Below are positions 6,696 through 24,391 of a DNA stretch of 64,000 nucleotides, piece after piece. The notes beneath the pieces were generated by a model that did no database searches, was not told the origin of the DNA, and saw only the letters and a program-made list of their open reading frames with translations. The translations under genes were made by a program, and so were the position numbers. Location of the stretch: positions 496,001-560,000 of the forward strand of contig NZ_CP134146.1 of assembly GCF_031583575.1 (NCBI RefSeq), read 5' to 3'. This DNA comes from Thalassotalea nanhaiensis. GTDB lineage: Bacteria; Pseudomonadota; Gammaproteobacteria; Enterobacterales; Alteromonadaceae. The first letter of the stretch is position 1. Each line of letters starts with the position of its first letter.

Positions 6696-6708
6696 AAAAC
6701 TACCTTAA

Positions 6709-6727
6709 ATAATAATGATTCTCATTT
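6709..6727 (-). promoter_or_regulatory. Fur-like box upstream of feoAB
   Basis: AATAATGATTCTCATTT reads as a near-palindrome related to the classical Fur consensus GATAATGATAATCATTATC. It lies immediately upstream of feoA, where iron repression is normal for this system. The site is inferred from sequence only. Confidence 0.7.
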
Positions 6728-6784
6728 CATTTTATAAAAACATTGCCATTTCAGCAATAAAAGAATGATTAAATCAGTTAATAA

Positions 6785-6798
6785 TTGATGTAAAGCAA
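6785..6798 (-). promoter_or_regulatory. FNR-like half-perfect box upstream of feoA
   Basis: TTGATGTAAAGCAA matches the FNR consensus TTGAT-N4-ATCAA at nine of ten fixed positions. It is 90-103 bases before the feoA start. Anaerobic activation of feo by FNR is known in enterobacteria. Here it is inferred. Confidence 0.5.
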
Positions 6799-6822
6799 CA
6801 AATTTGCGGTGGATTACGATAA

Positions 6823-7584
6823 TTATCTCTTGGAACGAGAGTAACGAATCCAAATATACAAACCACTGAGTGAAAGGATAATAATTGCAAGGGCAACAAG
6901 ATCCATGAACAACACCATATAATCACCAAATATGCGGCCAGAATGGGCATCCAAAATTACTCTTTCTAATGATAGAAACTGTGACTTATAACGTATGCTG
7001 GCATTATTAATATCGGCACTGGTAACTTGATCAGGGACAATCCACGAAGGCTCGTTAACAAAATCGACGTTATGCCAATCAAGCAAGTGTTCGCCACTTT
7101 GATAATAACCATTTGAGCTGTTTACTATGATAGAGCTGTTATTAATAGCCATCGCTGTAATGTTACTTGGAAGACCATCACTGGACGTTATTGTATCAAC
7201 CAAGCTATCGTTATCATCATAAAGTGATAATGTATTTGTAGTTAACACTAGATAAAATTCTAAATATTGGCCTATTGCGATGACATCCTCTAAACCTTCC
7301 TGCAACAAAGTATCATCTTTGAAGATATAGCCGTCACTGACAGTGAATTTTTTATCATGGAAAAACGTGGAATTGGTAGGATCCTTGATGCCATAATGTT
7401 GCAGTAACCATTGGTTTGTAATGGAAGTATGGCCAAGTTTAAAAAGTTCAGTATGGTTTAGCGCGATACCTGAAATAGATAAAAAGATCAGAAGTACGGC
7501 AGCAAAAATCCCTGATTTTCGATGCCACTCACGTAAATGACGAATCAGTTTTGCGTGAAGAGAGTTTTTAGATACTTTAACCAT
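6823..7584 (-). CDS. PepSY-associated TM helix family membrane protein
   Basis: A 253-residue protein with one hydrophobic segment near residues 25-43 (LREWHRKSGIFAAVLLIFL...) and another near 225-247. Between them is a large periplasmic region of beta-rich character. The N-terminal REWHRKSG..SG.ALNH pattern and the C-terminal SGRIFGDYMV...SGLYIW pattern are typical of PepSY-TM proteins, which occur with flavin- or heme-linked ferric reductases. It starts 1 base after the stop of the FMN-binding protein, so the two are translated together. A role in passing electrons to the periplasmic flavoprotein is inferred from this pairing. Confidence 0.7.
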   Translation of the reverse strand: MVKVSKNSLHAKLIRHLREWHRKSGIFAAVLLIFLSISGIALNHTELFKLGHTSITNQWLLQHYGIKDPTNSTFFHDKKFTVSDGYIFKDDTLLQEGLEDVIAIGQYLEFYLVLTTNTLSLYDDNDSLVDTITSSDGLPSNITAMAINNSSIIVNSSNGYYQSGEHLLDWHNVDFVNEPSWIVPDQVTSADINNASIRYKSQFLSLERVILDAHSGRIFGDYMVLFMDLVALAIIILSLSGLYIWIRYSRSKR

Positions 7585-7585
7585 T

Positions 7586-8104
7586 TTATTGTTTCACTTG
7601 GGTTTTGTTATCTAACCAGAGCGCAAGGCGAGCAACTTTATTCAATGCTCTAACAGACAAGGTAGCACCTGTTATTCCATCGATATGCTGAGTGAGTTGA
7701 TTGTCATCATCTAACTGGGCATTTATAAATTGCTTGGTAAAAAATTGATGACGAACTTCATCACCTCGACTTTCTCGAAATGCGAGTACTTTTATATTTA
7801 CAATTTTAGTATCTTCAATATGAACACCAATCGTAATAGGTTTTTCCTTACCAATTTCATCAAGTATCCACACTGTGGCATCATCTTGTTGCCAAAAACG
7901 AATACGCAGTTGGTTGAACTTACGCTTCATTATGGTACTGATAGCAGCCTTATCATCAGTTGATAGCCATAAAACCTCTGTTTTTGGTACTTCGGTGTTA
8001 AATGCTTGTGCTAAAAATTGCTCATTAGACTGATAAACTTCATCCGCAAATGCTGAAAATGCACTTGCAGATAAAATTAACAAAATGTAGATAAATTTGT
8101 TCAC
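7586..8104 (-). CDS. Exported FMN-binding domain protein
   Basis: 172 residues with a signal peptide (about residues 1-20, ending SAFA). The C-terminal half has the FMN-binding domain pattern, including IGVHIEDTKIVNIKVL and DGITGATLS at residues 142-150. In this family the Thr of the final GAT is the site where ApbE attaches FMN covalently. No apbE is in the window. The protein should act in the periplasm as a one- or two-electron carrier, as in NqrC/RnfG-like domains. It sits between an outer-membrane barrel and a PepSY-TM protein next to feoAB, suggesting a periplasmic iron-reduction role (inference). Confidence 0.85.
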   Translation of the reverse strand: MNKFIYILLILSASAFSAFADEVYQSNEQFLAQAFNTEVPKTEVLWLSTDDKAAISTIMKRKFNQLRIRFWQQDDATVWILDEIGKEKPITIGVHIEDTKIVNIKVLAFRESRGDEVRHQFFTKQFINAQLDDDNQLTQHIDGITGATLSVRALNKVARLALWLDNKTQVKQ

Positions 8105-8229
8105 GTAGTACCTTTTACTCGGTCTGATAGTCGTTTTCTACCCGAAAATATTAATAGGTAAATATAGCATTAATCGTTTCTATTCATTTAAGAAAAATAT
8201 TGTTTTATCCATACTTTTCTTAAATGAAT

Positions 8230-8260
8230 AAAGTGAATAAGGATTATCCTTATTCACTTT
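8230..8260 (-). terminator. Strong hairpin between barrel gene and FMN-binding gene
   Basis: A 14-bp perfect stem AAAGTGAATAAGGA / TCCTTATTCACTTT with a TTA loop lies just past the barrel-gene stop. No good T-run follows on the minus strand, so it may be an mRNA-stabilising or weakly terminating hairpin that gives the barrel gene a higher transcript level than the two genes behind it. Confidence 0.6.
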
Positions 8261-8292
8261 AATATTGATTACTTGTCTGCAGAGACAATTAA

Positions 8293-9477
8293 TTAGAACT
8301 GGTAACCAAATCCTAAGTTAAAACCTTTAGAGTCTTTAGAACCGCCTAACTCTTCAACATCAGCTTTAAATACAACATCTTCGTGTAGCCAATAGTTGAT
8401 ACCAACTGTAGTTGTTTCTACAGCTTCAGAAGAACTGTCGCCTGCTTGGTTGTTATATTCCGCATAACGAGCAAATACGCCAAACTCTTCAGATATTTTG
8501 TAAGAAGGCTCTACGTACCAACCTGTTTGCTCATCACGACCAAGTGATTCTGCTTCGTCACCATCAATATCCCATGTGGCGTATAATGCACGAATACTAA
8601 AGTCATTAACTTGATAAATTGCGTGTGCTTCAATTAATGTTGCCGCTGCTTCATCAACACCCGCTGCGCTTTGAGTAATATCCGTTTGATATTGTAATGT
8701 TGCAGCTAATTCTAAACCTGGAATAGCAGTGTATTTAACACGACCTGTATAAGCTAAGTTTTCTGCACTTGCTTCAGCAACCTTTTGACGACCTTTACGA
8801 ATTAAATAAGCATTTTTATCAGTTACTTCATTAACAACATTTAAACCACTTGTGATTGCTGCATCAATGCTTAAACCAGGAGCCACTTTAAAGTTACCAG
8901 CCAAACCTGCTTCCCACCAAGTTGCAGGAATAATGTTTTTCTCAACGCCGTTACGCTCTACACCGTAGAATGTTGGTGGCTCATGAGTTTCATTGATGAT
9001 ACCAACAGGTACTAAAAATAAACCCGCTTTAGTAGTGATATTTTTGCTGTAATCATATTCAACGTAGGCTTGTTCTAGTTCAACTTCACCAGGCTTGTCT
9101 TCACCGTCACCGGCTAATGAATGCTCTAGTTCAAACTCTGAGAAGAAACGTGTTTTTGAATCGAACTCATGGCCAAAGAATAAAACAAAACGGTGAAAAT
9201 CAATTTCAGCATCTTCATCTTCATAATTGTTATAGTGAAGTTCACCATAGCCACCAATAGTTGTATTAGCAAATGGATTTGCAGATGCATTTTCATCCAT
9301 TTGATCAGCCGTTGCTTCAAGACGACTTTCAGTCTCATTTAAACGTTTCTCTAAAGACTGTAGAACTTTTTGTTGTTCTGCGATTACTTCACGTAATTCT
9401 TGAGTTTCTTCAGCAGCCATTGCATTAGTTGCAAATAAAGACATAAGCGCAGTTGCGATAATTGATTTTTTCATCAC
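8293..9477 (-). CDS. Outer-membrane beta-barrel (porin-like) protein
   Basis: 394 residues. There is a signal peptide (cleavage likely after NAMA, about residue 22), then a short coiled coil (about residues 24-60, LREVIAEQQKVLQSLEKRLNE) and then a barrel that starts with TTIGGYGELHYNN and ends with the aromatic FNLGFGYQF typical of outer-membrane proteins. The coiled coil followed by a barrel resembles the OprP/OprO-type and Shewanella porin-like families. The substrate cannot be read. It is the first gene before the FMN-binding and PepSY-TM genes. Its upstream region holds a Fur-like box and a perfect FNR box, suggesting iron and oxygen control. Confidence 0.8.
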   Translation of the reverse strand: MMKKSIIATALMSLFATNAMAAEETQELREVIAEQQKVLQSLEKRLNETESRLEATADQMDENASANPFANTTIGGYGELHYNNYEDEDAEIDFHRFVLFFGHEFDSKTRFFSEFELEHSLAGDGEDKPGEVELEQAYVEYDYSKNITTKAGLFLVPVGIINETHEPPTFYGVERNGVEKNIIPATWWEAGLAGNFKVAPGLSIDAAITSGLNVVNEVTDKNAYLIRKGRQKVAEASAENLAYTGRVKYTAIPGLELAATLQYQTDITQSAAGVDEAAATLIEAHAIYQVNDFSIRALYATWDIDGDEAESLGRDEQTGWYVEPSYKISEEFGVFARYAEYNNQAGDSSSEAVETTTVGINYWLHEDVVFKADVEELGGSKDSKGFNLGFGYQF

Positions 9478-9896: not shown

Positions 9897-12800
9897 ATGC
9901 GTTCAAGTAATAGTTCAGGGTTACTTTCAGCAACATTATTTCATTTTAAAAATTTTTATAAGTTAATACTGCTCGTCAGTATTTTACTATTGGCTGGTTG
10001 CGACCATGACGACGATGATAACGATGACAAAAATCCTGATGCAAACATTACCGCCAATGCAGGTGTTGACCAACAAGTAACCTCCCAAGTAATTGTGACC
10101 TTACCTGGTTCAGGTACAACTGATACAGGAACCATAAGCACTTATGCTTGGACTCAAATCTCTGGTGATAGTGTTACGCTACTAAACTCTGATTTTGCCA
10201 CGGCAAGTTTTACCAGCCCAAGTAACCCAACAGACAATGTTTTAACATTTGAATTAACCGTAACAGATACCGAAGGCAATTTTGCTACCGACACTGTTGA
10301 TATTACCGTACAAGTAGATGGTGGCGGTGGAACAGTTCCACCAACAGCAGAAGCCGGTTCAGATAAAACAGCAATGTATGGTGATGTTGTTAACTTATTT
10401 GGTTTAGGAACCGACTCAGATGGCAGTATTGTAAGTTATCAATGGCTACAAGTGTCTGGCGCAACTGTGACCTTAATTAACCCTACTTTCCCCACAACAA
10501 AATTTACAGTGCCAGATATTGAACCTGGTGATTTAGTTTTTGAACTAACTGTTACTGACAATGATGGTTTAACGGCAACTGATACAGTGACAGTGACTAT
10601 TGAAGGCGAAGTGGTTCCACCGCCAATTGATGGAGTGGTCCTATTTGAAACACATTGTGGCGGTTGTCACACGGCTAATGGTTTAGGAACACCTGGCGGT
10701 AGTGATAAAACTGGTAGAACAGCAGAGCAAATAACAGATGCAATAGCAACCGTTAGTGCTATGAACTCATTGGACTTTTTAACTGCAGAAGAAATCCAAG
10801 CTATATCAGTAGCGATTACTCCAGAAGAAATTGATGGTGCAGCATTGTTTGAATCTGATTGTGGAGGTTGTCACACAGGTAATGGCTTGGGCTCTGGTAG
10901 CTCAGGACCGGATTTAACCAGTTATACCTTTGAACAGTTAACTTCTCGCCAGGATATGGTAGGTCATTTATCTGATCCTGAAGTGCAAGCGATTGCAGAT
11001 GCATTGGTCCCTGAGATAATTGACGGTGCAGCATTGTTTGAATCTGATTGTGGAGGTTGTCACACAGGTAATGGCTTGGGCTCTGGTAGCTCTGGACCGG
11101 ATTTAACCAGTTATACCTTTGAGCAGTTAACTGCTCGCCAAGATATGGTTGGGCATTTAACCGATCCTGAAGTGCAAGCGATTGCAGATGCATTGGTCCC
11201 AGAGATAATTGATGGTGCAGCATTGTTTGAATCTGATTGTGGCGGCTGTCACACAGGTAATGGCTTGGGCTCTGGTAGCTCTGGGCCGGATTTAACCAGT
11301 TATACCTTTGAGCAGTTGACTGCTCGCCAAGATATGGTAGGTCATTTAACCGATCCTGAAGTACAAGCGATTGCAGATGCGTTGGTACCCGAAGTACTAG
11401 ATGGCGCGCAAATATTTACAGATACTTGTGGCGGTTGTCATACCGCCAATGGCCTTGGCTCTGGCAGCTCAGATAAAACCAATCGAAATGTTACGCAAAT
11501 TATGAATGCCAACATGACGCAAGGCTTAAGTGATTTAGAATTGCAGGCGGTTGAAGCAGCGATCACTAATCAAGTTCAGCTCTTTGATGATAGCTGTAGT
11601 GGTTGTCATAGCCGTGCCGATAAAGCGAATCGGACAGCTGCACAAATTGCTGATGCGATCGCAACCGTCGGCTCGATGATGACAGCTGATCTTGAAATAT
11701 TAAACGATAGACAGCTCGGCGTAATTTCTGACGAGTTAATTGATGGTGCTGATTTATTTACTAATACCTGTGGTGGCTGTCATACCGCCAATGGGCTCGG
11801 CTCAGGCAGCTCCGATAAAACCAACCGAAATGTTACGCAAATAATGAATGCCAACATGACGCAGGGGTTAAGTGATATCCAACTGCAAGCGGTTGAAGAA
11901 GCGATCACCAATCAAGTTCAACTGTTTGATGATAGCTGTAGTGGTTGTCATAGCCGTGCCGATAAAGCGAATCGGACAGCTGCACAAATAGCTAATGCTA
12001 TTGCAACGGTTGGTTCGATGATGACGGCTGAGCTGGAAATATTAAACGATAGACAGCTTGGCGTAATTTCCGACGAGTTAATTGATGGTCCTACTTTATT
12101 TACAGATACATGTGGTGGTTGTCATACCGCCAATGGCCTTGGCTCAGGCAGCTCCGATAAAACCAATCGAAATATTACGCAAATAATGAATGCCAACATG
12201 ACGCAGGGGTTAAGTGATATCCAACTGCAAGCGGTTGAAGAAGCGATCACCAATCAAGTTCAGCTCTTTGATGATAGCTGTAGTGGTTGTCATACTCGTG
12301 CCGATAAAGCGAATCGGACAGCTGCACAAATTGCTGATGCGATCGCAACGGTCGGCTCGATGATGACTGCTGACCTAGAAGTGTTAAACGATCGACAACT
12401 CGGCGTAATTTCCGACGAGTTAATTGATGGTGCTGATTTATTTACTAATACTTGTGGTGGTTGTCATACCGCCAATGGGCTTGGCTCAGGGAGTTCAGAC
12501 AAGACTAATAAAAATATCGAACAAATCAAAGGCGCTAGCATGACGCAGGGCTTAAGTGATATTCAACTGCAAGCGGTTGAAGAAGCGATCACCAATCAAG
12601 TCCAACTCTTTGATGATAGTTGTAGTGGTTGTCACACTCGTGCCGATAAAGCGAATAGCAGCGCCGCTGAAATTGCTAATGCGATTGCAACGGTCGGTTC
12701 GATGATGATTGCTGATCTCGAAATATTAAACGATAGACAACTCGGTGTAATTTCCGACGAGTTAATTGATGGTGCTGATTTATTTACCAATACCTGTGGT

Positions 12801-13997
12801 GGCTGTCATACCGCTAATGGTCTTGGCTCAGGTAGTTCAGACAAAACAAATAAAAATATCGAGCAAATCAAAGGCGCAGGCATGACGCAAGGCTTAAGTG
12901 ATATTCAACTGCAAGCGGTTGAAGAGGCGATCACCAATCAAGTCCAGCTGTTTGATGATCGCTGTAGTGGTTGTCACACTCGTGCCGATAAAGCGAATAG
13001 AAGCGCAGCTGAAATTGCCAATGCGATCGAAACGGTCGGTTCGATGATGATTGCTGATCTCGAAATATTAAACGATAGACAGCTCGATGTAATTTCCGAC
13101 GAGTTAATTGATGGTGCTGATTTATTTACTAATACCTGTGGAGGCTGTCATACCGCTAATGGCCTTGGAACAGGTAGTTCAGACAAAACAAATAAAAATA
13201 TTGAGCAAATCAAAGGCGCGAGCATGACGCAAGGCCTAAGTGATATCCAACTGCAAGCGGTCGAAGAGGCGATCACCAATCAAGTCCAACTGTTTGATGA
13301 TCGCTGTAGTGGTTGTCACACTCGTGCCGATAAAGCGAACCGGACAGCCGCACAAATTGCCAATGCGATTGCAACGGTCGGTTCTATGATGATTGCTGAT
13401 CTCGAAATATTAAACGATAGACAGCTCGATGTAATTTCCGACGAGTTAATTGATGGAGCTCTATTGTTTACGTCTAACTGTAGCGGTTGTCATAGCGAGG
13501 CAGGTAAAGCCAATGCGACATTTGCTGATATCTCAGGCGCAATTGACAATAACACTGGCGGTATGGGGCAGTTCTCAGATTTTAATGATATGCAAATTCA
13601 AGCTATTGCAGATTACTTAATTGACGGAGCGTTATTGTTTACGTCTAACTGTAGTGGTTGTCATAGTGAGGCAGCTAAAGCCAATGCGACATTTGCTGAT
13701 ATATCAGGAGCAATTGACAATAACACTGGCGGTATGGGGCAGTTCTCAGATTTTAATGATATGCAAATTCAAGCTATTGCTGATTACTTAATTGATGGAG
13801 CCGCGTTATTTACCAATAATTGTACAGATTGCCACCAAGGCAATGGTATGGGCAGTTCAGGCTCAGATAAAACCGATGCCACATTTGCTGAAATATCTGG
13901 GGCTATAGATGGTGATTTTGGTGGAATGGGGCAGTTTTCAAGCTACACAGACCCTCAAATCCAAGCAATAGCAGATGCTCTGCTTTCAACTCCATAA
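9897..13997 (+). CDS. 19-heme tandem mini-cytochrome c lipoprotein with PKD-like domains
   Basis: 1366 residues. A long signal ends in the lipobox LLAGC (Cys35) and an Asp-rich linker follows. Two PKD-like beta domains span about residues 50-140 and 148-235. Nineteen CxxCH motifs come next, with first Cys at 254, 322, 385, 448, 511, then every 56/58 residues to 1195, and at 1252 and 1309. Each module is 56-68 residues: [L/I]F...C..CH, a Gly/Asn-rich loop, one or more Met (QDMVG, NANMTQG, GSMM, GGMGQF) and a closing helix (Q[AL].[AVE]). This looks like a chain of small class I cytochrome c domains with likely His/Met ligation. It heads the electron-transfer operon, 31 bases before the NapC-type gene. 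Predicted to sit on the outer membrane and act as a long electron wire or store. I know no named family with this exact design. Confidence 0.88.
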   Translation: MRSSNSSGLLSATLFHFKNFYKLILLVSILLLAGCDHDDDDNDDKNPDANITANAGVDQQVTSQVIVTLPGSGTTDTGTISTYAWTQISGDSVTLLNSDFATASFTSPSNPTDNVLTFELTVTDTEGNFATDTVDITVQVDGGGGTVPPTAEAGSDKTAMYGDVVNLFGLGTDSDGSIVSYQWLQVSGATVTLINPTFPTTKFTVPDIEPGDLVFELTVTDNDGLTATDTVTVTIEGEVVPPPIDGVVLFETHCGGCHTANGLGTPGGSDKTGRTAEQITDAIATVSAMNSLDFLTAEEIQAISVAITPEEIDGAALFESDCGGCHTGNGLGSGSSGPDLTSYTFEQLTSRQDMVGHLSDPEVQAIADALVPEIIDGAALFESDCGGCHTGNGLGSGSSGPDLTSYTFEQLTARQDMVGHLTDPEVQAIADALVPEIIDGAALFESDCGGCHTGNGLGSGSSGPDLTSYTFEQLTARQDMVGHLTDPEVQAIADALVPEVLDGAQIFTDTCGGCHTANGLGSGSSDKTNRNVTQIMNANMTQGLSDLELQAVEAAITNQVQLFDDSCSGCHSRADKANRTAAQIADAIATVGSMMTADLEILNDRQLGVISDELIDGADLFTNTCGGCHTANGLGSGSSDKTNRNVTQIMNANMTQGLSDIQLQAVEEAITNQVQLFDDSCSGCHSRADKANRTAAQIANAIATVGSMMTAELEILNDRQLGVISDELIDGPTLFTDTCGGCHTANGLGSGSSDKTNRNITQIMNANMTQGLSDIQLQAVEEAITNQVQLFDDSCSGCHTRADKANRTAAQIADAIATVGSMMTADLEVLNDRQLGVISDELIDGADLFTNTCGGCHTANGLGSGSSDKTNKNIEQIKGASMTQGLSDIQLQAVEEAITNQVQLFDDSCSGCHTRADKANSSAAEIANAIATVGSMMIADLEILNDRQLGVISDELIDGADLFTNTCGGCHTANGLGSGSSDKTNKNIEQIKGAGMTQGLSDIQLQAVEEAITNQVQLFDDRCSGCHTRADKANRSAAEIANAIETVGSMMIADLEILNDRQLDVISDELIDGADLFTNTCGGCHTANGLGTGSSDKTNKNIEQIKGASMTQGLSDIQLQAVEEAITNQVQLFDDRCSGCHTRADKANRTAAQIANAIATVGSMMIADLEILNDRQLDVISDELIDGALLFTSNCSGCHSEAGKANATFADISGAIDNNTGGMGQFSDFNDMQIQAIADYLIDGALLFTSNCSGCHSEAAKANATFADISGAIDNNTGGMGQFSDFNDMQIQAIADYLIDGAALFTNNCTDCHQGNGMGSSGSDKTDATFAEISGAIDGDFGGMGQFSSYTDPQIQAIADALLSTP
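10860..11426 (+). repeat. 189-bp tandem repeat, three units
   Basis: Three units starting at the CxxCH codons 10860, 11049 and 11238, each 63 codons long. They are nearly identical in DNA and encode hemes 2-4 of the tandem cytochrome. Confidence 0.9.
11427..13478 (+). repeat. 342-bp tandem repeat, six units (two hemes each)
   Basis: Exactly 2052 bases, which is six times 342. Each unit encodes a 56-residue and a 58-residue mini-cytochrome module (CGGCH then CSGCH). Units begin at 11427, 11769, 12111, 12453, 12795 and 13137. Long stretches are identical between units, and substitutions group neighbouring units (NRNVTQIMNAN in early ones, NKNIEQIKGA in later ones). This is consistent with recent stepwise duplication. 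Confidence 0.92.
13479..13991 (+). repeat. 171-bp tandem repeat, three units
   Basis: Units begin at the CxxCH codons 13479, 13650 and 13821. The first two are almost identical and the third is diverged (CTDCHQGNG). They encode hemes 17-19. Confidence 0.88.
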
Positions 13998-14028: not shown

Positions 14029-14697
14029 ATGCTAGATTTTATGGAATGGATTTTTGAATTACTCGAACCATTTGGTTTGGTTATAGTGATATTTGCCATT
14101 GTGGTTGTTTTGCTGGTTATTGCATTTATTGTTTCCCGTTTTTTTAATAAAGCAGCATATACCAGTTTCTTTTTGATTACGGTTGGTTTATTTGTCGGTG
14201 TAGGTACTGTTGTTGGTTTTGAAGTTGGTATGGGAATGACCAATACAGAAGCTTTTTGTACTGGCTGTCATTCACAACCGGGAGCTACGGCAGAAACTTA
14301 CCATACATCTACTCATTTCAAGAATAAAACCGGGGTTCGCCCTATCTGTTCAGACTGTCACGTACCAGTTGAATTTGGCAATAAAATGTGGCGAAAAATT
14401 ATCGCATCGCGTGAATTATGGTCATATTTTGCTGGGGAATTAGATACAACAGAACAATATCTATCAAAAGTTGTACATATGCGGGATAAAGAAATAGCCC
14501 GCTTAAAAGCAAATGACTCACAAGAATGTCGTAATTGTCACGAAGTTTCACAAATGGTGTTTGAATTGCAAACTGCAAAAGCTCAAGAGTTTCATGCAGC
14601 TATGGAAAATGAAGGTAAAACTTGTATTGATTGTCACCAGGGGCTTACTCATTTGTCTGAAGACGTTGCTGCTATTGTTGAAGCAGACACACATTGA
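14029..14697 (+). CDS. NapC/NirT (CymA-like) tetraheme quinol dehydrogenase
   Basis: 222 residues with four CxxCH motifs (CTGCH from Cys77, CSDCH, CRNCH, CIDCH) in the NapC/NirT/NrfH layout. The C-terminal AQEFHAAMENEGKTCIDCH is characteristic. Such proteins are anchored in the inner membrane and pass electrons from quinol to periplasmic carriers. Two hydrophobic segments are visible, about residues 15-37 and 43-68, where CymA and NapC have one. It is the likely entry point of electrons into this operon's pathway. The ATG is preceded by AAGGTAACAA. The downstream gene begins 23 bases later. Confidence 0.88.
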   Translation: MLDFMEWIFELLEPFGLVIVIFAIVVVLLVIAFIVSRFFNKAAYTSFFLITVGLFVGVGTVVGFEVGMGMTNTEAFCTGCHSQPGATAETYHTSTHFKNKTGVRPICSDCHVPVEFGNKMWRKIIASRELWSYFAGELDTTEQYLSKVVHMRDKEIARLKANDSQECRNCHEVSQMVFELQTAKAQEFHAAMENEGKTCIDCHQGLTHLSEDVAAIVEADTH

Positions 14698-14720: not shown

Positions 14721-16289
14721 ATGCAACAAAATATTGTGTTTAAATTGCCTTCAGCAGTTGTTGTGTTATTGGGTTTGCTTAGTTTATTTATAACTGGCAA
14801 CGCTGGCGCGCAACAAATATCGGCCAAAATTGAATGTACAAGTTGTCATGATCCAAAAGTGAGTCATAAGATCAAAGCAATGCACAATAGTAAGCATTGG
14901 GACAAGTTGATAAAAGAGTCGCCAGTGAATAATGATGGTTGTGCCGCTTGTCATGGTGATAGCCAAACACATGCAGCAACACCAACTAAATTTCAACCTA
15001 GAACAAGTTATGGTCCAAGATGGACAGCTACTATCGATCAACAAAATAATACCTGTTTAAACTGCCATGAAAAAACGGCAACTCATAAGGAGTGGCGTGC
15101 AGGTAAACATGCAGAACAAGAGGTTACCTGTGTGACCTGTCATGACGTCCATGTAGATCTTGATCCTGTTCGAGAAGAAGACACACAAGCTGAAGTCTGC
15201 ACTGTTTGTCATAAAGTTCAAAAGAATGGCATACATCATTTTAAAGATAAAATTGATGAAAACCCCATATGTTCAACTTGTCACAATCCGCATGCTAATC
15301 CTCTGCCGCAATTTATGATGCTGGAAAATAGATCGTTAGGTTGTCGTAACTGTCATGATTTTAGAGAGATGCAACTAAGCAGTGAAGTAAGCCTTAAGGC
15401 CAAAAATTATCATTTGGTAATGCAACATAAAGACAGAACATGTGTTGATTGTCACCTTGGTGTTGCTCATGTTGATAAAGAAAACTTTTCTAAATTACGT
15501 GAGGGCGGATTAGCGTCGATGTTGGTGGATGTATTCCACCCTGGGCAATCAGATGGTGATTGGTTACTGGAAGAGCATCCTGGAGCACAAGCACTACGTC
15601 AAGGTAGAAATTGTCGTCAATGTCATTTAGGGGAAGCGAAAGAACTTGGTAAAGCACTTGCTCCGAAAGAAATCATCTCAAGCATAGAATCCAATGTGTC
15701 AGTTAAAAAAATGGCATCAGCAGTGCAATTTACCATCACCTGGAAAGGCAGTGAAAATGATAATAGCCTTGCCTTAATGTTTGATAATGGCCAGGTTGAT
15801 GCTTTTTCAAAAGGTGGCTGTTGGGCATCTTGTCATGGGGATTTACCGGGTATGAGTCGCGACAGAGGTCTTAATAAAACTAAATATTTATTAAGTTCAT
15901 TAAAACAACAGCACAGTGTTGGTTTTCCTAGTGTTGAATATGATCAAAAAACACTGGATAACATGATAACAAATGGTGAGTTTGTCGAATTATGGCGGGT
16001 TAATTTAAGCAAAGGAAAGTTTGCTGATTTACAGCGATTTAAGGTTTTAGGTGAACGTAAAGAAAGTGAACTTGGACAACTTACGGCAAGTGCAAACTTT
16101 GCTAATGGTATATGGACTGTAGTCATAAATAAACCTATTGATGACAAGGTTAAGCCGCTTATTGAAGGTAATGATATTACCTTCGGTATAGCCATTCATT
16201 TAGATGGAAAATCAGGCGCAGAACATAAAGTGTCGTTACCACTGACCATTTCATCTGATGGTATTGATACAGATTTTATTTTGCAGTAA
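14721..16289 (+). CDS. Mosaic decaheme cytochrome with C-terminal ethylbenzene-dehydrogenase-like domain
   Basis: 522 residues from the ATG at 14721, chosen because GGAGAAAGGAAAT precedes it. A signal peptide ends at AGA (residue 30). Nine CxxCH motifs run from Cys39 to Cys298. A tenth is non-standard, CWASCH (CxxxCH) at Cys367, inside a domain (about 330-520) that looks like the heme-binding EB_dh domain of ethylbenzene or DMSO-type enzyme subunits. Hemes 1-6 resemble an MtrA/DmsE arrangement. Hemes 7-8 (CRNCH...YHLVMQHKDRTCVDCHLG) mirror the last two hemes of the NapC-like neighbour. It is probably a soluble periplasmic carrier between the quinol dehydrogenase and the MtrA-type protein. Exact role unknown. 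Confidence 0.8.
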   Translation: MQQNIVFKLPSAVVVLLGLLSLFITGNAGAQQISAKIECTSCHDPKVSHKIKAMHNSKHWDKLIKESPVNNDGCAACHGDSQTHAATPTKFQPRTSYGPRWTATIDQQNNTCLNCHEKTATHKEWRAGKHAEQEVTCVTCHDVHVDLDPVREEDTQAEVCTVCHKVQKNGIHHFKDKIDENPICSTCHNPHANPLPQFMMLENRSLGCRNCHDFREMQLSSEVSLKAKNYHLVMQHKDRTCVDCHLGVAHVDKENFSKLREGGLASMLVDVFHPGQSDGDWLLEEHPGAQALRQGRNCRQCHLGEAKELGKALAPKEIISSIESNVSVKKMASAVQFTITWKGSENDNSLALMFDNGQVDAFSKGGCWASCHGDLPGMSRDRGLNKTKYLLSSLKQQHSVGFPSVEYDQKTLDNMITNGEFVELWRVNLSKGKFADLQRFKVLGERKESELGQLTASANFANGIWTVVINKPIDDKVKPLIEGNDITFGIAIHLDGKSGAEHKVSLPLTISSDGIDTDFILQ

Positions 16290-16313: not shown

Positions 16314-17252
16314 GTGATTAAAAAAACAAAAATAGCACAAGCTTTAAAAGGTAGCCTGATTCGTTTGCTACTCGCTATTGTTTTAGTATTTAGTATTAAT
16401 AGCTTGTTTGCCGCAGAGCAAGTTACTACTGCAGAAGTCGTAGAGGTAGATTGTTTAGGTTGCCATCAGGAGTCACAAGGCTCGTCTATTCATGCTATTT
16501 GGCAAACACCACATGGCAAAGTATTTGGCAAAAATAATGAAACATGTGTTACTTGCCATGGCCCAAGTTTAGAACACGGCAAGGTACCAAGAGATAACTC
16601 TCCTAGCTTAAGCTTTGGCCCTAAATGGCCGAGCGAATTTAATGAGCAGTCTGCAGTATGTTTAGGCTGCCATGAAAAAGGAAACCAAGTGATGTGGTTG
16701 AGTGGGGTACATAATGATGAACAATTATCATGCTTATCATGCCATAACATCCATACCCAAATAGATGAAGTTTTAGTTAGAATAGAGCAGTCAGAAACTT
16801 GCTTCACGTGCCATAAATCAGTGCAGGCGTCTGCCCATATGCCATCTAGTCACCCAATTTTAGAGGGTAAAACAACCTGCGTTGATTGCCATAATCCCCA
16901 TGGCAATATCAGTGAGCATTCGCTAAATGAGCCAACGGTAAATGACACCTGCTTTTCCTGTCATGCTGAAAAGCGTGGTCCATTCTTATTTGAACATGCG
17001 CCGGTTGCTGAAGACTGTACCACTTGTCATAAACCACATGGTTCTGTTAATGCCAGCTTATTAAAAACTCGCGGACCATTTTTATGTCAGCAATGTCATT
17101 CGGCAGCTTTTCACCCAAGTGTTCAGCACGATGGCGGCGGGCTTCCTAATACTGGCCAGGGGTCTGAATTTTTACTTGGAAAAAACTGTCTAAATTGTCA
17201 TTCCCAAATTCACGGCTCAAACCATCCTTCTGGCTCCAGGTTAACTAGGTAG
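16314..17252 (+). CDS. mtrA: MtrA/DmsE-family periplasmic decaheme cytochrome
   Basis: 312 residues, the usual MtrA length. The signal peptide ends near FAA (residue 34). Ten CxxCH motifs start at Cys47 (CLGCH, CVTCH, CLGCH, CLSCH, CFTCH, CVDCH, CFSCH, CTTCH, CQQCH, CLNCH), with the family phrases SLSFGPKWP, CHNIHT and CHNPHG. In Shewanella MtrA sits inside the MtrB barrel and carries electrons across the outer membrane. The matching barrel gene follows after 7 bases. The start is GTG (16314) with an AAGGA site upstream. The assignment to the MtrA/DmsE/PioA family is firm. Which paralogue it matches most closely is not decided. Confidence 0.9.
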   Translation: MIKKTKIAQALKGSLIRLLLAIVLVFSINSLFAAEQVTTAEVVEVDCLGCHQESQGSSIHAIWQTPHGKVFGKNNETCVTCHGPSLEHGKVPRDNSPSLSFGPKWPSEFNEQSAVCLGCHEKGNQVMWLSGVHNDEQLSCLSCHNIHTQIDEVLVRIEQSETCFTCHKSVQASAHMPSSHPILEGKTTCVDCHNPHGNISEHSLNEPTVNDTCFSCHAEKRGPFLFEHAPVAEDCTTCHKPHGSVNASLLKTRGPFLCQQCHSAAFHPSVQHDGGGLPNTGQGSEFLLGKNCLNCHSQIHGSNHPSGSRLTR

Positions 17253-17259
17253 GTATGGC

Positions 17260-19767
17260 ATGAAAATAAATGAATGCTTATCACCTTGTTTGCTTGCAAC
17301 AGCAATATTTAGCATTAGTAGTTATGCTGAACAAGCTGGTGAGGAGGATCCATTTGCATTTTTAGCCGAAGAAAAATATCAACCCAAAGCCATTTCAGAA
17401 GCAGAAGAAAAGACTACATCGGACGTTTCTGAAGCAAGTAAAGAAGAAGACCCATTTGCATTCTTAAAGGACGAAAAGTATCAACCTAAGGCCATCCCTG
17501 AAACAAGTAAAAATGACAACTCAGAGATTGTAGATGTTAGCAAAGAAGAAGATCCTTTTGCTTTTTTAGCTGAAGAAAAGTATCAGCCAAAAATAGTAGT
17601 TCAGAAAGTAAGTCCTCCTGGTTTTGTGCAGCTGGATGTACTAAATGTAAGTGATGACAATTTTAGTTTTGGGCAATATAACGGTTTAAGTGAAGAAGGG
17701 ACAAAAGTAAATTTATCTGGCTCTTACCGAGATTTTAATACTGATTCAACATTGACAGATTATTGGCAATTCAATGCACAAAACTTAGGGTTAGATAATC
17801 GTGAACTTTCTATTGCTTTAGGACAAGTTCGTGCTTACAAAGTAGCGTTTCATTTTAATCAAATTCAACAAGTTAAAAATTTTACCGGTTTTACACCATT
17901 TTCAGATAATGGTGATTCATTAGTTTTACCTAGAGGCCTCTTTACTTTGCCAAATAGTTGGGTTGCAGCGCAAACTACTGATGGTATGACAGCATTTAAT
18001 ACTATTGCCAGTCCATTTGAGCAGACGCTCGAACGCGAGCGACTCAGCCTAGAATATTCACAATATTTTGGTAAAAACTGGTTTTTAACTTCTGACTTTA
18101 GCTCTGAAGAAAAGACCGGCACAAAAACTACCGGTGCTGCATTTTACGCTAATGTACAAAACGGACATTCGGCAATTTTACCGCAATCAATAGATCAAAC
18201 TACCAATAAAATGGAGCTATCTATCGCCTATAATCAGGCGCTTTATTCTGTAAAAGCAGACTATTTACTCTCTCAATTTGACAATGATAAGTCATCGCTC
18301 ATTTGGCAAAATCCGTATTCTTCTCTAATAGGGCCCAATGTGGCCTACCCTGATGGGACAGGGCAAATAGGGGCCGAACCCGATAATGATTTTCATCAAT
18401 TAAGAATCTCAGGGCATTATGTCTACTCGCCAACATTGCGATTTTTCGCTGATACTTCCTATTCAATGGCTAGTCAAGATGATAACTATTTACCATATAC
18501 AATTAATAGCCAGTTGATAAGTGGCTCCTTACCAAGATCAAACTTGGATGGCGAAGTGATAACCATTACTGCTAAAGCTACTGCGTTATATCGCTATTCG
18601 AATACTCTAAACTTTAAGGGGCTCTATCGCTATAAGGAGCGCGACAATCAAAGTCCGCGAGATGCATATCAAGTTGTTTTTGCGGATACTTGGGCTCCAC
18701 TGGAAGGAAAGTTTCACCACTACAATGCTCCCCATAGTAAAAACTCTAATTACTTTGAACTAACAGCTAACTATTCTTTACCTAGTCGCAGTAAAGTCTC
18801 GTTGATTTACGGCTATGAAGAAATTGACCGATATAACTATGCCGTAAATAGCACTATTGAAAATGGCATTAAACTAAAGCTTAGAACTCGTTCTGAAAAC
18901 AACTTGGCCAGTAGGTTTGAGCTAGGATATAAAGACAGATCGGCCTCATTGTACCATTGGGACAGATCTTACTTTTCGTTATTTGATGCTCAGTTAATAA
19001 ATCAGACTCCTGAAAATCAAAGGTATACCAATCACCCGTTACTTAGTCAGCACTATTTGTCTAACCGTGAACAATTAAATGCTAAAGCCAGTTTTAGTTA
19101 TCCTATTGAAGACAATATGCATGCTAATTTTGATCTCAGCTTTAAAGAAAATGACTATGACAAATCTACTTTAGGTTTAACCAATGATAAAACCTTTTTC
19201 AGTACTTTAAATGGTGTTTGGGTATATTCAAACACCGTCAATTTTTCGAGTTATTTAAGTTATGACAGTTATGAGTTTGAACAAACGGGCAGAGAGTTTA
19301 CTGGTGGTTACGAAAAGTCAGCCTTTGATTTATATGAACCGCTACCACAAGCAAGTGATAGTGCAAGAAACTGGCAGATAAAGCCACAAGACAGTACCGT
19401 ATCACTTGGTCTGTCAGCACATTGGGACTACTTACCTAAAAAAATTGAGATGGACTTTGATTATAGGTTAAGTGATTCCACCAGTAAAAATGATAATTAT
19501 TCTTCTGGCGGGGCAACTGACTTAACCAATATAGGCTTACCCGATGTGAGCAATAAAGAACATCATTTTGAATTTAAAACTTTGTATCATTATAAGCCCA
19601 ATATGAGCTTCTCCTTTAGTTATCAATATTATCGATTTGATGCTAAGGATTGGGCCTATGATCAGGTTAATCCAAATTCAATCGCGAAAGTTTTGGGAAC
19701 AGGTCAACGCCCAGCTAACGACCAGTTACATGTGTTTCAACTTTCCTTTAAGTATCAAATTGAGTAG
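17260..19767 (+). CDS. mtrB: MtrB/PioB-family outer-membrane barrel (decaheme-associated)
   Basis: 835 residues, longer than Shewanella MtrB (about 700). The signal peptide ends near SYA (residue 23). A periplasmic leader has three copies of a 34-residue unit starting EEDPFAFL at residues 28, 62 and 96. A barrel-like region then begins about residue 118 (GFVQLDVLNVSDDNFSFGQY) and runs to a C-terminal FQLSFKYQIE. The alternating aromatic and polar strands fit a large barrel. It should sheath the MtrA-type cytochrome encoded just upstream and dock the two surface decahemes encoded downstream. I do not see the N-terminal CxxC known from Shewanella MtrB. Confidence 0.85.
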   Translation: MKINECLSPCLLATAIFSISSYAEQAGEEDPFAFLAEEKYQPKAISEAEEKTTSDVSEASKEEDPFAFLKDEKYQPKAIPETSKNDNSEIVDVSKEEDPFAFLAEEKYQPKIVVQKVSPPGFVQLDVLNVSDDNFSFGQYNGLSEEGTKVNLSGSYRDFNTDSTLTDYWQFNAQNLGLDNRELSIALGQVRAYKVAFHFNQIQQVKNFTGFTPFSDNGDSLVLPRGLFTLPNSWVAAQTTDGMTAFNTIASPFEQTLERERLSLEYSQYFGKNWFLTSDFSSEEKTGTKTTGAAFYANVQNGHSAILPQSIDQTTNKMELSIAYNQALYSVKADYLLSQFDNDKSSLIWQNPYSSLIGPNVAYPDGTGQIGAEPDNDFHQLRISGHYVYSPTLRFFADTSYSMASQDDNYLPYTINSQLISGSLPRSNLDGEVITITAKATALYRYSNTLNFKGLYRYKERDNQSPRDAYQVVFADTWAPLEGKFHHYNAPHSKNSNYFELTANYSLPSRSKVSLIYGYEEIDRYNYAVNSTIENGIKLKLRTRSENNLASRFELGYKDRSASLYHWDRSYFSLFDAQLINQTPENQRYTNHPLLSQHYLSNREQLNAKASFSYPIEDNMHANFDLSFKENDYDKSTLGLTNDKTFFSTLNGVWVYSNTVNFSSYLSYDSYEFEQTGREFTGGYEKSAFDLYEPLPQASDSARNWQIKPQDSTVSLGLSAHWDYLPKKIEMDFDYRLSDSTSKNDNYSSGGATDLTNIGLPDVSNKEHHFEFKTLYHYKPNMSFSFSYQYYRFDAKDWAYDQVNPNSIAKVLGTGQRPANDQLHVFQLSFKYQIE

Positions 19768-19784: not shown

Positions 19785-22133
19785 ATGTATAGAAAAACTA
19801 CATTAATTATCATGATGTCACTGTTAGCAAGTATCGTACTTGCTGGTTGTGATGGCGATAGTGGTGGTGATAGAGCTAAGGGCATAGAAGCTACACCGCC
19901 ACCAGCAAGTGGAACACCCCCAACGACACCTCCGCCGGTAACGCCTCCTCCACCTGAAAATGGTTTAATTGAGTCGGGTGATATCACCGAAGATGATACT
20001 ATTAGTACAGCAATGTCAGGGGTAAAAGTAGACCAAAGTTTAACCTTAACATTCACTTTAATGGTTAATGGCGTTAGTCAAATTGTTGATTTAAATTCTA
20101 GCAACGCAAGGTTTACTCTGGCAAAGCTAGTGACAAACGCCGGTGAAGCGCAAGGTATGAGCTGGACAAGTTATTTTGTTACTTTTGAAGATCCCATTTG
20201 TCGCAACCAGACTGATGTTGACGATGAGAACAATGCTTGTACTACATTTACAGAAGACACAGATCCTGAATTGATTGCTGATACAGCCAAAAAAGTGCAA
20301 AGCGAATTTGCTACAGGTAAGTCAGTATTAACTCAAGCAACTTCAGATAATAATGGTTTATTTGAAAATAATGGTGATGGCAGCTGGAATTATACTTTCC
20401 CATTTCAGTTTTCTGACGTTGCTGCTCTAACAGAAGTTCATCGAAGCTGTATTCAGTTTAGTTTTAATGCTGATGTTGAAAATATCTGTGTGGACTTTGT
20501 ACCTTCAGAGGTTGCTACTGCAACTGATGGAATTACCGGCACTTCTTTGTCTGAGATGTTTTATCAAACGCACAATGCGCGACAAATTGTTACCGAAGGA
20601 ACTTGTAACACGTGTCATGATAAATTGGCCATACATGGTGGTGGACGAACTCAAACCCAATATTGTGTCACCTGTCATAACCCAGACACAAATGATAGTA
20701 ATAGCGGTAACTCGGTAGATTTTAAACAACTCATTCATAAAATTCATTTTGGTCGAAACCTGCAAAATTTTGTTGATGATGGCAAACCATTCACTATTTG
20801 GGGCTATCGCAATAGCGAACACAATTATTCAACGACTGGTTTTCCACAAAATATAAAAAATTGTGGCAGTTGCCATGCAGGTGACGAAGATATTGTTTTC
20901 TCGCAAACTCAAATGATACCTGAGCCGACTGCAACAATAACTGATAATGGCCATAGTTGGGTGACAAACCCTACAAAATCGGCATGTGAGTCATGCCATG
21001 AAAAACTCTTTACCGAGGGAATTCGACTTAATGGCGAAGAGTTTACTTTGCATATCTCTTACACTGAAGAAACCAATTGTGCAGGATGCCATGCTGATTT
21101 AGGTGCTGAAACTCCTGACTCTAAACAAGCAAACCAAGCCCATAGAGATACTGCCATTGAAAAAGCGTTAACTTATGCGATGAATATTGAAAGTGTTATT
21201 AATACTGGCCCAGGTGAAAGCCCTGTGGTTACTTTTAATGTTACTGAAAATGGTGTGCCAATAGATATAAAAACGTTTGATGGTAAAATCAGAGTGGGAG
21301 TCTCATGGGATGCTGCAAGTGATTTTGATAATGAAGGGTTAACAGGGTTTGATGCGTTAAATATTGAAATTGATGCTATTGCCGAAAGCATTTTAAAAGC
21401 AGGTTCAGACAACAGTTTTGTTCTTGATATAAGTACGGTTGGTTTAACACCAAAAACAATTCCTGATGGTCAAGATACTATTGCTGTCTTGATGTTGGGC
21501 CATGCAAATGGACCAAATACTACCGCTACCAGCTTTGATGATGTAAGCCCCATCAAAAGTCCAATAGAATTTTTCGCAAGTAGTGGAACATCTGTTACTC
21601 CAAGACGAACAGTTGTTTCTATTGATAAGTGTAACAGCTGTCATAATCGCCTCTCTATGGTTGAAAAAGGTCACGTAAATTTTCATGCAGTACCTAGTGG
21701 TGAACCTTTAGTGTGTGCATCATGCCATGGTGCCAGCCTTGGTTTTGGCGAATATGCTGATTTTAGGTATCTTATCCACGGCGTACACGCGACTGATATT
21801 AGAGAGGAGCCATATAGAGGAGAGTTTTCCGAAAATATCCACTTTCCAGGTGATATAGCTAATTGTGATAGTTGTCATATTGAAGGTACTACACAATTGC
21901 CATTAGCGTTTAATACCCCAATATTTACCGGTATTACAGATCAATATACTACTCCTACGGCAACTGCTTGTAGTTCTTGCCATGATTCTGCTGAAGCTCA
22001 AACCCATATGATTTCAACAGGTGGGGCAAAATTTAATGAAAGTTATGATTTGGTGCAAAGCACTACGGAGAGCTGTGCCTTATGTCATGGTCCCGGAGAA
22101 GCGGCCGATGTTGAAATGGTCCATAAACGGTAA
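19785..22133 (+). CDS. OmcA/MtrC-family decaheme surface lipoprotein, copy 1
   Basis: 782 residues. The lipobox VLAGC gives lipidated Cys22, followed by a Pro/Thr-rich linker. An N-terminal beta domain precedes ten CxxCH motifs in two groups of five: from Cys274 CNTCH, CVTCH, CGSCH, CESCH, CAGCH, then CNSCH, CASCH, CDSCH, CSSCH, CALCH. Between the groups is a second beta domain. The CHDKLAIHGGGR...YCVTCHNP and NSGNSVDFKQLIHKIH phrases are family hallmarks. It is predicted to lie on the cell surface as the terminal reductase for minerals, flavins or electrodes. It is followed after 14 bases by a paralogue. Confidence 0.92.
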   Translation: MYRKTTLIIMMSLLASIVLAGCDGDSGGDRAKGIEATPPPASGTPPTTPPPVTPPPPENGLIESGDITEDDTISTAMSGVKVDQSLTLTFTLMVNGVSQIVDLNSSNARFTLAKLVTNAGEAQGMSWTSYFVTFEDPICRNQTDVDDENNACTTFTEDTDPELIADTAKKVQSEFATGKSVLTQATSDNNGLFENNGDGSWNYTFPFQFSDVAALTEVHRSCIQFSFNADVENICVDFVPSEVATATDGITGTSLSEMFYQTHNARQIVTEGTCNTCHDKLAIHGGGRTQTQYCVTCHNPDTNDSNSGNSVDFKQLIHKIHFGRNLQNFVDDGKPFTIWGYRNSEHNYSTTGFPQNIKNCGSCHAGDEDIVFSQTQMIPEPTATITDNGHSWVTNPTKSACESCHEKLFTEGIRLNGEEFTLHISYTEETNCAGCHADLGAETPDSKQANQAHRDTAIEKALTYAMNIESVINTGPGESPVVTFNVTENGVPIDIKTFDGKIRVGVSWDAASDFDNEGLTGFDALNIEIDAIAESILKAGSDNSFVLDISTVGLTPKTIPDGQDTIAVLMLGHANGPNTTATSFDDVSPIKSPIEFFASSGTSVTPRRTVVSIDKCNSCHNRLSMVEKGHVNFHAVPSGEPLVCASCHGASLGFGEYADFRYLIHGVHATDIREEPYRGEFSENIHFPGDIANCDSCHIEGTTQLPLAFNTPIFTGITDQYTTPTATACSSCHDSAEAQTHMISTGGAKFNESYDLVQSTTESCALCHGPGEAADVEMVHKR

Positions 22134-22147
22134 GGTGGTAGTTGACT

Positions 22148-24391
22148 ATGCAAATTGGCAGATTTAAAAAATTATCGCTTCAGAATGTTCTAGTTTTATT
22201 GTTAGCATTTTTGACCATTTCTTGTGGAGGGGATGGTAGTGACAATTCTGGAGTTGAAAGTAATAGCCAAAATGTAACGGAAAAATCAGAAACAGAAGAA
22301 ATCACTCCTGGTAACTTTATTACTTCTGCAACGATTGAGTCAGGAAAATTAACCGTACAATTTCAGCTTTTTGAAGTTGACAGTCAACCCGTCACCACAG
22401 TAACTGCTGAGGACGTACAGTTTACCGTGGCAAAATTAATGATAGGCCCAGAAGGAAATCTTACCGGAAATTGGCAATCCTATCTTAACAAAATTGAATA
22501 CCCTGGCGTAGGAACTGGTACTGAAGCAAAATTACAGGCAACAACTGAAAAAGCAACGACAGGTAGTTTTGTAAACTTTAATAATGGCGTGTACCAATAC
22601 ACGTTTAGTCAACCACTTGAAACCAGCAACCAAACGTTACTACAACAAGCTGAATTAGAAGGGCTAAATTTAAATTATCAAGATAACTTTACTCATCGAG
22701 TTGGAGTTCAAATTGCCAATTTAAATGAGCCAGTTAATGTTACCTTTGATTGGAACCCTAGCTCTGGAAAAACACAATACGATGGACTCTTTAGTCAGCA
22801 TATAGTTGCCACGGAAAACTGTAATGCTTGTCATGGTGAATTAGCCATGCACGGCGGTGGTAGGGTTGAAGTTGATTATTGCGTAACGTGTCATAATCCT
22901 GGTTCAACAGATGCCAATAGTGGTAACACAGTTAATTTTAAGAACATGATCCACAAAATTCATCGTGGTAAAGATTTACCGTCTGTGCAAGCCGGTGGTA
23001 GTTATCAAATTTATGGCTATCAAGACTCTTTGCATGACTATAGTGCAGTCACTTTTCCAAACGACATACTTGAATGTGGTCAATGCCATGCTGGCGGTGC
23101 TACTGCGATTTCGGGCGTTACAGTAACCCAAAGCGGAGACAACTGGCGAGAAGTCGTTACTATGCAAGCCTGTGGATCATGTCATGATGATCTCATTTTT
23201 TCTGAACACATGGGAGGCCAAACAGATAACACTAACTGTCGTAGCTGCCACCAAAACTCTGCTATTGCTGGTTCTATTGAAGATAAACATAAAAACCTGA
23301 TCAACGAAGCAAAATCCCTATTCGCTGCAAATATTTTAAATATTAGTCAAACAGCGCCTGGGGAATTTCCTTTAATTCAATTTAGTATCAGTAACCCAGA
23401 AGATAACGACGCATTATATGATATTTTAACTGACGAAGAGTTTACCAACGATTTAAGTTCATTAGCTGTTGATATAGCGTGGTCGACAGCAGATTATACG
23501 AATATTGGTAATCAAGGTGACAATGCCAGCGCGGTACAAGTAAATGCATTAACAGAAGCGACGGCTGTAGGTGATGGCAGCTTTACTGTGCAATCTAGTG
23601 TGGCAGTGCCAGACGGTAGCCAAGCGCCTTTAATTTCGGCTACAGGCAGCGGTGCGGTAAATATTGAAGGTCATCCTGCGGTTAACTTTGGTGATGTTAA
23701 CAATCCAGATTATCAAAGTGTTCCATTAACGAATGTTGTAGATTATTTTACTATAACAGACACATCTCCTACTGCTCGTCGAATAGTTGTAGACCTAAAT
23801 AACTGTTTTGGCTGTCACAGTGAATTATCAATGCATGGTGGAAATCGCAACGATAATATTGAAGCATGTGTTATGTGTCATAACCCACGAAATACTGATA
23901 AACGAGTGAGAGCAATCGCAGCTACACCACCTACTGATGGCAAAACAGAAGAGTCTATAGATTTTAAAACCATGATCCATGGTATTCATGGCACCAATAT
24001 TCGTGAAAACCCATTACAAATTGTTGGTTACCAGGGTTTTTCTACTCATGTTTATGATAATACCTTTCCTGGAGAGGTAGGAAACTGTCTTATTTGTCAT
24101 AGCGACGGCACATTTGAATTACCACTTGCAGATAATGTTTTAGCGACATCTGTTAATACCGGCGTTGAAGTTTCAGACCCAAATGATGATATCGTTATAT
24201 CCCCTACAGCAGCTGTATGTAGTTCGTGCCACGACAGTGAGCTGGCGCAAGGTCATATGGAGTCTAATGGAGGCAGTTTCTCTACTACACAAAGTGATAT
24301 TGATAATGGAATAATTATAGAGCAATGTCAGTTTTGTCACGGTCCAGGAGCGCCACAGGATATTGCAGAATTGCATCCGATTAGCCAATAA
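22148..24391 (+). CDS. OmcA/MtrC-family decaheme surface lipoprotein, copy 2
   Basis: 747 residues from the ATG at 22148, chosen over a TTG six bases earlier because AAGGTGG then has a normal 9-base spacing. The lipobox LTISC gives lipidated Cys26. There are ten CxxCH motifs (CNACH, CVTCH, CGQCH, CGSCH, CRSCH, then CFGCH, CVMCH, CLICH, CSSCH, CQFCH) with the same five-plus-five layout and CHGELAMHGGGR signature as its neighbour. In Shewanella, MtrC and OmcA form a comparable pair of surface cytochromes. This is the last gene of the operon. It faces fusA2 tail to tail across an array of bidirectional terminators. Confidence 0.92.
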   Translation: MQIGRFKKLSLQNVLVLLLAFLTISCGGDGSDNSGVESNSQNVTEKSETEEITPGNFITSATIESGKLTVQFQLFEVDSQPVTTVTAEDVQFTVAKLMIGPEGNLTGNWQSYLNKIEYPGVGTGTEAKLQATTEKATTGSFVNFNNGVYQYTFSQPLETSNQTLLQQAELEGLNLNYQDNFTHRVGVQIANLNEPVNVTFDWNPSSGKTQYDGLFSQHIVATENCNACHGELAMHGGGRVEVDYCVTCHNPGSTDANSGNTVNFKNMIHKIHRGKDLPSVQAGGSYQIYGYQDSLHDYSAVTFPNDILECGQCHAGGATAISGVTVTQSGDNWREVVTMQACGSCHDDLIFSEHMGGQTDNTNCRSCHQNSAIAGSIEDKHKNLINEAKSLFAANILNISQTAPGEFPLIQFSISNPEDNDALYDILTDEEFTNDLSSLAVDIAWSTADYTNIGNQGDNASAVQVNALTEATAVGDGSFTVQSSVAVPDGSQAPLISATGSGAVNIEGHPAVNFGDVNNPDYQSVPLTNVVDYFTITDTSPTARRIVVDLNNCFGCHSELSMHGGNRNDNIEACVMCHNPRNTDKRVRAIAATPPTDGKTEESIDFKTMIHGIHGTNIRENPLQIVGYQGFSTHVYDNTFPGEVGNCLICHSDGTFELPLADNVLATSVNTGVEVSDPNDDIVISPTAAVCSSCHDSELAQGHMESNGGSFSTTQSDIDNGIIIEQCQFCHGPGAPQDIAELHPISQ

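Follow-up and report, generated by a model that had tools for sequence, protein, structure and literature searches.

A gene for nineteen tandem PgcA-type heme modules leads an Mtr-type gene cluster in Thalassotalea nanhaiensis

PgcA (GSU1761) of Geobacter sulfurreducens has been presented as the founding member of a protein class that uses flexibly tethered single-heme domains instead of packed heme wires (PMC11520253), and reduction of Fe(III) and Mn(IV) oxides is abolished in Geobacter lacking PgcA (PMC11520253, PMC5732950). Linkers of the (PT)x type separate its heme His residues, which are spaced by 91-94 residues, and the crystal structures of domains I and II (8QJ6 and 8QJG) show domains of 61-63 residues with a His/Met-ligated heme, whose His is hydrogen-bonded by an acidic residue (Asp372/Glu281). 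Domain III (8QK0) is bis-His, with a His at +32, and mineral-reactive, and paralogues of PgcA with 3-14 hemes exist (PMC11520253). Here we analysed a stretch of 64,000 nucleotides (the window) from the marine gammaproteobacterium Thalassotalea nanhaiensis, whose genome is a single contig of 4.31 Mb. The window contains a gene for a giant putative lipoprotein with 19 tandem heme modules, which by sequence homology belong with PgcA domains I and II; it is the first gene in an operon-like row of iron-respiration (Mtr) genes (Table 1).

Layout of the giant cytochrome and homology of its modules

The giant protein is encoded in a single unbroken frame and contains 19 CxxCH motifs between residues 254 and 1309, spaced by 68, 63, 63 and 63 residues, then by alternating distances of 56 and 58, and finally by 57 and 57. 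Its 39 Cys residues comprise 38 heme Cys and the lipobox Cys36, which, together with an Asp-rich stretch, comes after a long n-region. Two K319L-like PKD domains were identified (PF22352, E 1.2e-35), and the array matches Cytochrom_C (1e-79) and Cytochrome_CBB3 (1.6e-70). In every module, the heme motif is followed by a Met and then by a closing amphipathic helix, which leads straight into the opening helix of the next module, giving a pitch of 56-68 residues. At the DNA level the gene is a tandem array of a 189-bp unit in three copies, a 342-bp unit in six copies and a 171-bp unit in 2.1 copies. The mature protein would have a mass of about 138 kDa without heme and is strongly acidic, with a calculated isoelectric point of 4.05.

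A phmmer search of the PDB with modules 18-19 returned 8qjg (E 9e-8) and 8qj6 (1.4e-7) as best matches, with the whole module, including the ligand-bearing GGMG, aligned, and a 21-module profile matched the same two chains (2.8e-9 and 2e-8). Foldseek also placed 8qjg and 8qj6 at ranks one and two (probability 0.99 and 0.94, 39-40% identity) for a low-confidence model of modules 18-19, a ranking that is not independent proof, as the model is poor and Foldseek also takes sequence into account. Module 19 and PgcA domain II have identical residues in 30 of 66 alignment columns; for the final module of an orthologue from a congeneric genome (G011, see below), the count is 32 of 66. Furthermore, the acidic column aligned with PgcA Asp372/Glu281 is Asp in 44 of the 49 modules known from three genomes.

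These results confirm the layout put forward in the original prediction, which had been made from the window sequence alone and listed nineteen CxxCH motifs at 56-68-residue spacing together with a lipobox, an Asp-rich linker and two PKD-like domains. Its reading of the array as chained His/Met, class I-like mini-modules is supported by the predicted Met loop and closing helix in every module. The modules do fall well short of the usual length of class I cytochromes, as proposed, but this module size was already known, PgcA domain I having 61 residues. The accompanying view that no family with this architecture had been described needs revising, since the modules are of the PgcA domain I/II type and paralogues with 3-14 hemes are published.

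Genomic neighbourhood, orthologues and repeat turnover

As also anticipated, the giant gene opens an operon of Mtr type, with genes for a tetraheme cytochrome, MtrA-DOMON, MtrA, MtrB and two MtrC/OmcA proteins downstream. The NapC/CymA-type tetraheme gene starts 31 bp 3' of the giant gene, the whole operon-like row lies on one strand, and it encodes 62 predicted c-hemes (19+4+9+10+10+10 CxxCH). Its gene content, with nonaheme MtrA-DOMON and tetraheme genes beside mtrAB and two mtrC genes, fits the MtrCAB clusters of Group 6 (Baker et al. 2022, PMC8805035), an assignment made by gene content and not by tree; in that group, two mtrC genes are described for the members outside the Halieaceae.

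Orthologues of the giant protein were identified in two other genomes of the genus (17 genomes covered), designated G011 and G005, with 15 modules each. Because they occupy the same place in these genomes, the array is neither a product of chance nor an assembly artefact. The giant gene occurs in exactly three of the 17 congeners, which are the same three that have strong MtrA-DOMON matches, and no other congener has either. The order of the giant gene and the Mtr row is kept in G011 and G005, and the giant gene always lies directly 5' of the tetraheme gene.

None of the 49 modules of the three genomes has a broken motif: C-x(2-4)-CH is retained throughout, and every loop contains one or more Met. 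The modules of G005 are far more diverged, and in its array Met is found at 17/358 in the loop versus 5/606 elsewhere. Four modules of the G005 orthologue (L004) carry CxxxCH or CxxxxCH and still keep the ligand Met. Between T. nanhaiensis (G000) and G011, modules 1-5 show a nonsynonymous divergence (dN) of 0.040 and a synonymous divergence (dS) of 1.10, and the modules are under strong purifying selection, with dN/dS far below 1. As dN reaches 0.088 in the first 240 residues, comprising the signal, linker and PKD domains, the heme part is the better conserved portion of the protein. The A-type repeats, which alternate with B-type repeats in modules 5-16, are 99.6% identical among themselves within G011 and 78.5% identical between species, demonstrating concerted repeat turnover.

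Searches beyond the genus covered samples of genomes, some of them at strict thresholds, and the rarity of the array is accordingly provisional. A contig search of genomes with the giant protein itself as query returned no relative, and most matches in a general search for its relatives cover the PKD region only. The corresponding contig search with MtrA-DOMON, for which the N-terminal patterns were poor, returned only Neiella and distant decahemes. A spaced CxxCH pattern applied to 296 genomes of the order retrieved, apart from the giant gene, only other multiheme families, and the array was absent from the plasmids searched. At strict thresholds it was not found in 398 genomes of the phylum or, bar a weak partial match (L044), in 297 genomes from other genera of the family. 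Proteins of about 550-575 amino acids with 21 CxxCH at short regular spacing were noted in other families of the order (L049, L064).

Several further features of the window were recorded. A conserved CWASCH (CxxxCH) in or beside the DOMON part of MtrA-DOMON, in addition to its nine CxxCH, makes a tenth heme possible. The divergent block adjoining the giant gene (4279-9477, minus strand) encodes a porin (Porin_O_P), an FMN_bind protein, a PepSY-TM protein and feoB, which suggests an iron/flavin-related neighbourhood. The Mtr locus is bracketed by two EF-Tu genes that seem identical, share a strand and lie 25 kb apart, each with an EF-G gene beside it; the pair may mark where the locus recombined or was inserted.

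Table 1. Features of the giant cytochrome gene and the surrounding locus (positions in the window)
Feature	Position	Strand	Basis
Giant lipoprotein cytochrome, 1366 aa, 19 CxxCH	9897..13997	+	Open reading frame and motif count
Signal peptide with lipobox LLAG-C36 (residues 1-36)	9897..10004	+	Sequence reading; start and lipobox identical in two orthologues
Asp-rich linker DHDDDDNDDKNPDA, C-terminal to the lipidated Cys (predicted)	10005..10046	+	Sequence reading
PKD-like domain 1 (residues 55-138)	10059..10310	+	Full-length PF22352 match
PKD-like domain 2 (approx. residues 150-238)	10344..10610	+	Second PF22352 stretch; KIAA0319L PKD match, residues 67-238
Heme module 1 (68 aa)	10617..10820	+	CxxCH spacing
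Heme modules 2-4 (3 x 63 aa; 189-bp DNA repeat)	10821..11387	+	Met +28, extra His +31 from heme His
Heme modules 5-16, six tandem A/B pairs (56 + 58 aa; 342-bp DNA repeat)	11388..13439	+	
Heme modules 17-19 (57, 57, 71 aa), most PgcA-like of the array	13440..13994	+	
NapC/NirT (CymA-type) inner-membrane tetraheme cytochrome	14029..14697	+	PF03264 4e-56; TIGR02161
MtrA-DOMON, nine CxxCH and ethylbenzene-dehydrogenase-type (DOMON-like) C-terminal domain	14721..16289; frame opens 14694	+	TIGR03508, PF09459; alignment with three relatives
MtrA/DmsE-family decaheme	16314..17252	+	TIGR03508 2e-81
MtrB/PioB outer-membrane barrel	17260..19767	+	PF11854 7e-108, TIGR03509
OmcA/MtrC-family decaheme lipoprotein 1	19785..22133	+	TIGR03507 2e-105
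OmcA/MtrC-family decaheme lipoprotein 2	22142..24391	+	TIGR03507 4e-158
EF-Tu/EF-G genes around the Mtr locus	201-2306, 2411-3595, 25010-27103, 27479-28663		

Proposed role in extracellular electron transfer and alternatives

Judged from its sequence, the giant protein is rather probably a lipoprotein of the cell surface whose role is to relay and buffer electrons between MtrCAB and acceptors outside the cell. It would be exported via Sec, lipid-anchored and displayed on the outer surface alongside the MtrCAB complex of the same operon, with the two PKD-like domains as a stalk for 19 PgcA-type mini-cytochromes c that would each carry one c-heme and are fused without spacers. Electrons could pass from the quinol pool via the tetraheme protein to MtrA-DOMON/MtrA, MtrCB and the cell surface, where MtrC/OmcA would hand them to the 19-module chain for relay or storage. 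As the units are fused directly, hopping between neighbouring modules would be expected rather than the long-tether diffusion of PgcA. Neighbouring modules are estimated to be held at about one domain diameter (~2.5 nm), the contour length of the chain would amount to some tens of nanometres, and one anchor point could serve acceptors such as Fe(III)/Mn(IV) oxides, other cells or matrix at that distance. All three genomes bearing the giant gene also encode a type II secretin.

A number of observations weigh against parts of this proposal. The central modules alone (modules 7-8, tested for 5-16) gave no significant match to any PDB chain; modules 5-16 are placed with the PgcA type because they are homologous to the other repeats of the array, and in the A-type modules the loop is shortened and the exact ligand ambiguous. 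Modules 2-4, and modules 1-3 of G005, have a His at +31/32 besides the Met at +28/29 and could be bis-His; ligation may thus be mostly His/Met across the array and either His/Met or bis-His in modules 2-4. The mineral-reactive domain III of PgcA has no clear counterpart, with 8QK0 absent among the matches listed. AlphaFold2 models of modules 7-10 and 18-19 were of low confidence (mean predicted local distance difference test scores of 34 and 47), so heme-heme geometry is not derivable from them and none is claimed. The same Mtr cluster is present, but without the giant gene, in Neiella litorisoli, which belongs to another family of the order; the giant gene is therefore dispensable for the Mtr conduit and looks like a lineage-specific accessory of it. 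Finally, the residue at lipobox position +2 is Asp, which in E. coli is an inner-membrane retention signal, and retention of the giant protein in the inner membrane is possible.

The Asp at +2 bears directly on the main rival explanation, an inner-membrane-anchored or periplasmic relay or buffer between the tetraheme quinol dehydrogenase and MtrA-DOMON/MtrA. Such a location, which we regard as unlikely, would also suit the NapC/CymA-type gene 31 bp downstream, and a PgcA variant with a mutated lipid anchor that is trapped in the periplasm can substitute for periplasmic carriers in Geobacter (PMC11520253). However, the MtrC-like lipoprotein encoded at 19785 has Asp at +2 too, and MtrC homologues work at the surface; furthermore, we estimate that an extended 19-module chain would be longer than the periplasm is wide. 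PKD domains and Asp-rich linkers are, moreover, typical of surface proteins.

It is quite improbable that the hemes mostly serve as a capacitor, storing 19 electrons per polypeptide with little directional conduction, or as a reservoir of heme iron. Near-identical modules suggest similar potentials, suited to storage and lacking a built-in gradient, and feoB in the flanking block would accord with an iron reservoir, but the strict co-occurrence with a trans-envelope conduit points to transfer, and storage and relay can coexist. Very improbable is a repeat protein in decay or with incomplete heme attachment, such as an adhesin stalk whose heme motifs are vestigial: differing repeat numbers (19, 15 and 15) and the CxxxCH or CxxxxCH motifs of G005 could be read in this way, whereas the motif is intact in 49 of 49 modules, and dN/dS lies far below 1.

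Comparison with other electron-transfer proteins

Small class I cytochromes c (c6, c553 and CcoP domains; Cytochrome_CBB3) share with the giant's modules the opening helix, CxxCH, Met loop and closing helix, and profile matches to them are significant, but they usually have 79-90 residues or more. Class I cytochromes c usually form one to few domains per chain. The c7-type polymers (GSU1996-type) and the OmcS/OmcE/OmcZ filaments likewise repeat heme units to cover distance, but theirs are multiheme bis-His units with close-packed hemes. The c7-polymer reading was ruled out, as the giant protein has no match to the triheme c7 'nanowire' model TIGR04257 and each repeat contains one heme motif, in agreement with the difference from such polymers noted in the original prediction. 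Group 6 MtrCAB clusters and the T. nanhaiensis cluster both encode a tetraheme inner-membrane cytochrome, nonaheme MtrA-DOMON, MtrA, MtrB and two MtrC; a tandem giant cytochrome is not described for Group 6 in the passages of PMC8805035 covered here. The periplasmic monoheme protein 'mono' of Group 6 clusters might be a relative consisting of one such module.

Two other module arrangements were encountered. In a Desulfobacterota protein (L109, genome G1493), four PgcA-type modules carried on Gly-rich linkers precede a multiheme part with six CxxCH, an arrangement that unusually combines tethered hemes with packed ones. Reading frames of 1586-1690 amino acids (L115, L117 and L118 in G1468, G1491 and G1289) contain two PgcA-like heme domains among acidic DxDxDG calcium-binding-type repeats.

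A natural linkerless version with 15-19 units tied to MtrCAB would allow series conduction by such units to be addressed directly, along with the effect of chain length on reach and the use of extracellular extensions by Mtr systems. The absence of linkers in a 19-unit chain would change the physics relative to tethered PgcA, and the repeat array offers a ready-made, length-variable scaffold for protein electronics.

PgcA and its paralogues ('hemes on a string') share with the giant protein a lipoprotein signal, a cofactor-free N-terminal part and monoheme modules of about 60 residues, and the His/Met ligands and acidic hydrogen-bond partner of domains I/II align with its modules. In contrast, PgcA has three modules (up to 14 reported in paralogues) versus 15-19 in the giant family, and the giant lacks PT/PA/Gly linkers, its pitch of 56-68 residues comparing with 74-94 in linked relatives; in related Desulfobacterota proteins the modules lie 74-91 residues apart on Gly- or PT/PA-rich linkers. 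The giant also has a PKD base, lacks a clear bis-His domain III and heads an MtrCAB cluster in a gammaproteobacterium. A chain of this length without spacers between units appears to be undescribed. The module type itself is known, and what is new relative to the PgcA class is the number of 15-19 modules, the linkerless fusion, the PKD base, the concerted repeat evolution and the linkage to a Group 6-type MtrCAB cluster. More tentatively, and with greater doubt than for the surface relay itself, the giant family might add a third design to those of close-packed bis-His filaments and PT-tethered domains. In this reading the His/Met mini-cytochromes would form a covalent wire without linkers that is mounted on MtrCAB, extends over several tens of nanometres and evolves fast in length by repeat expansion and contraction.

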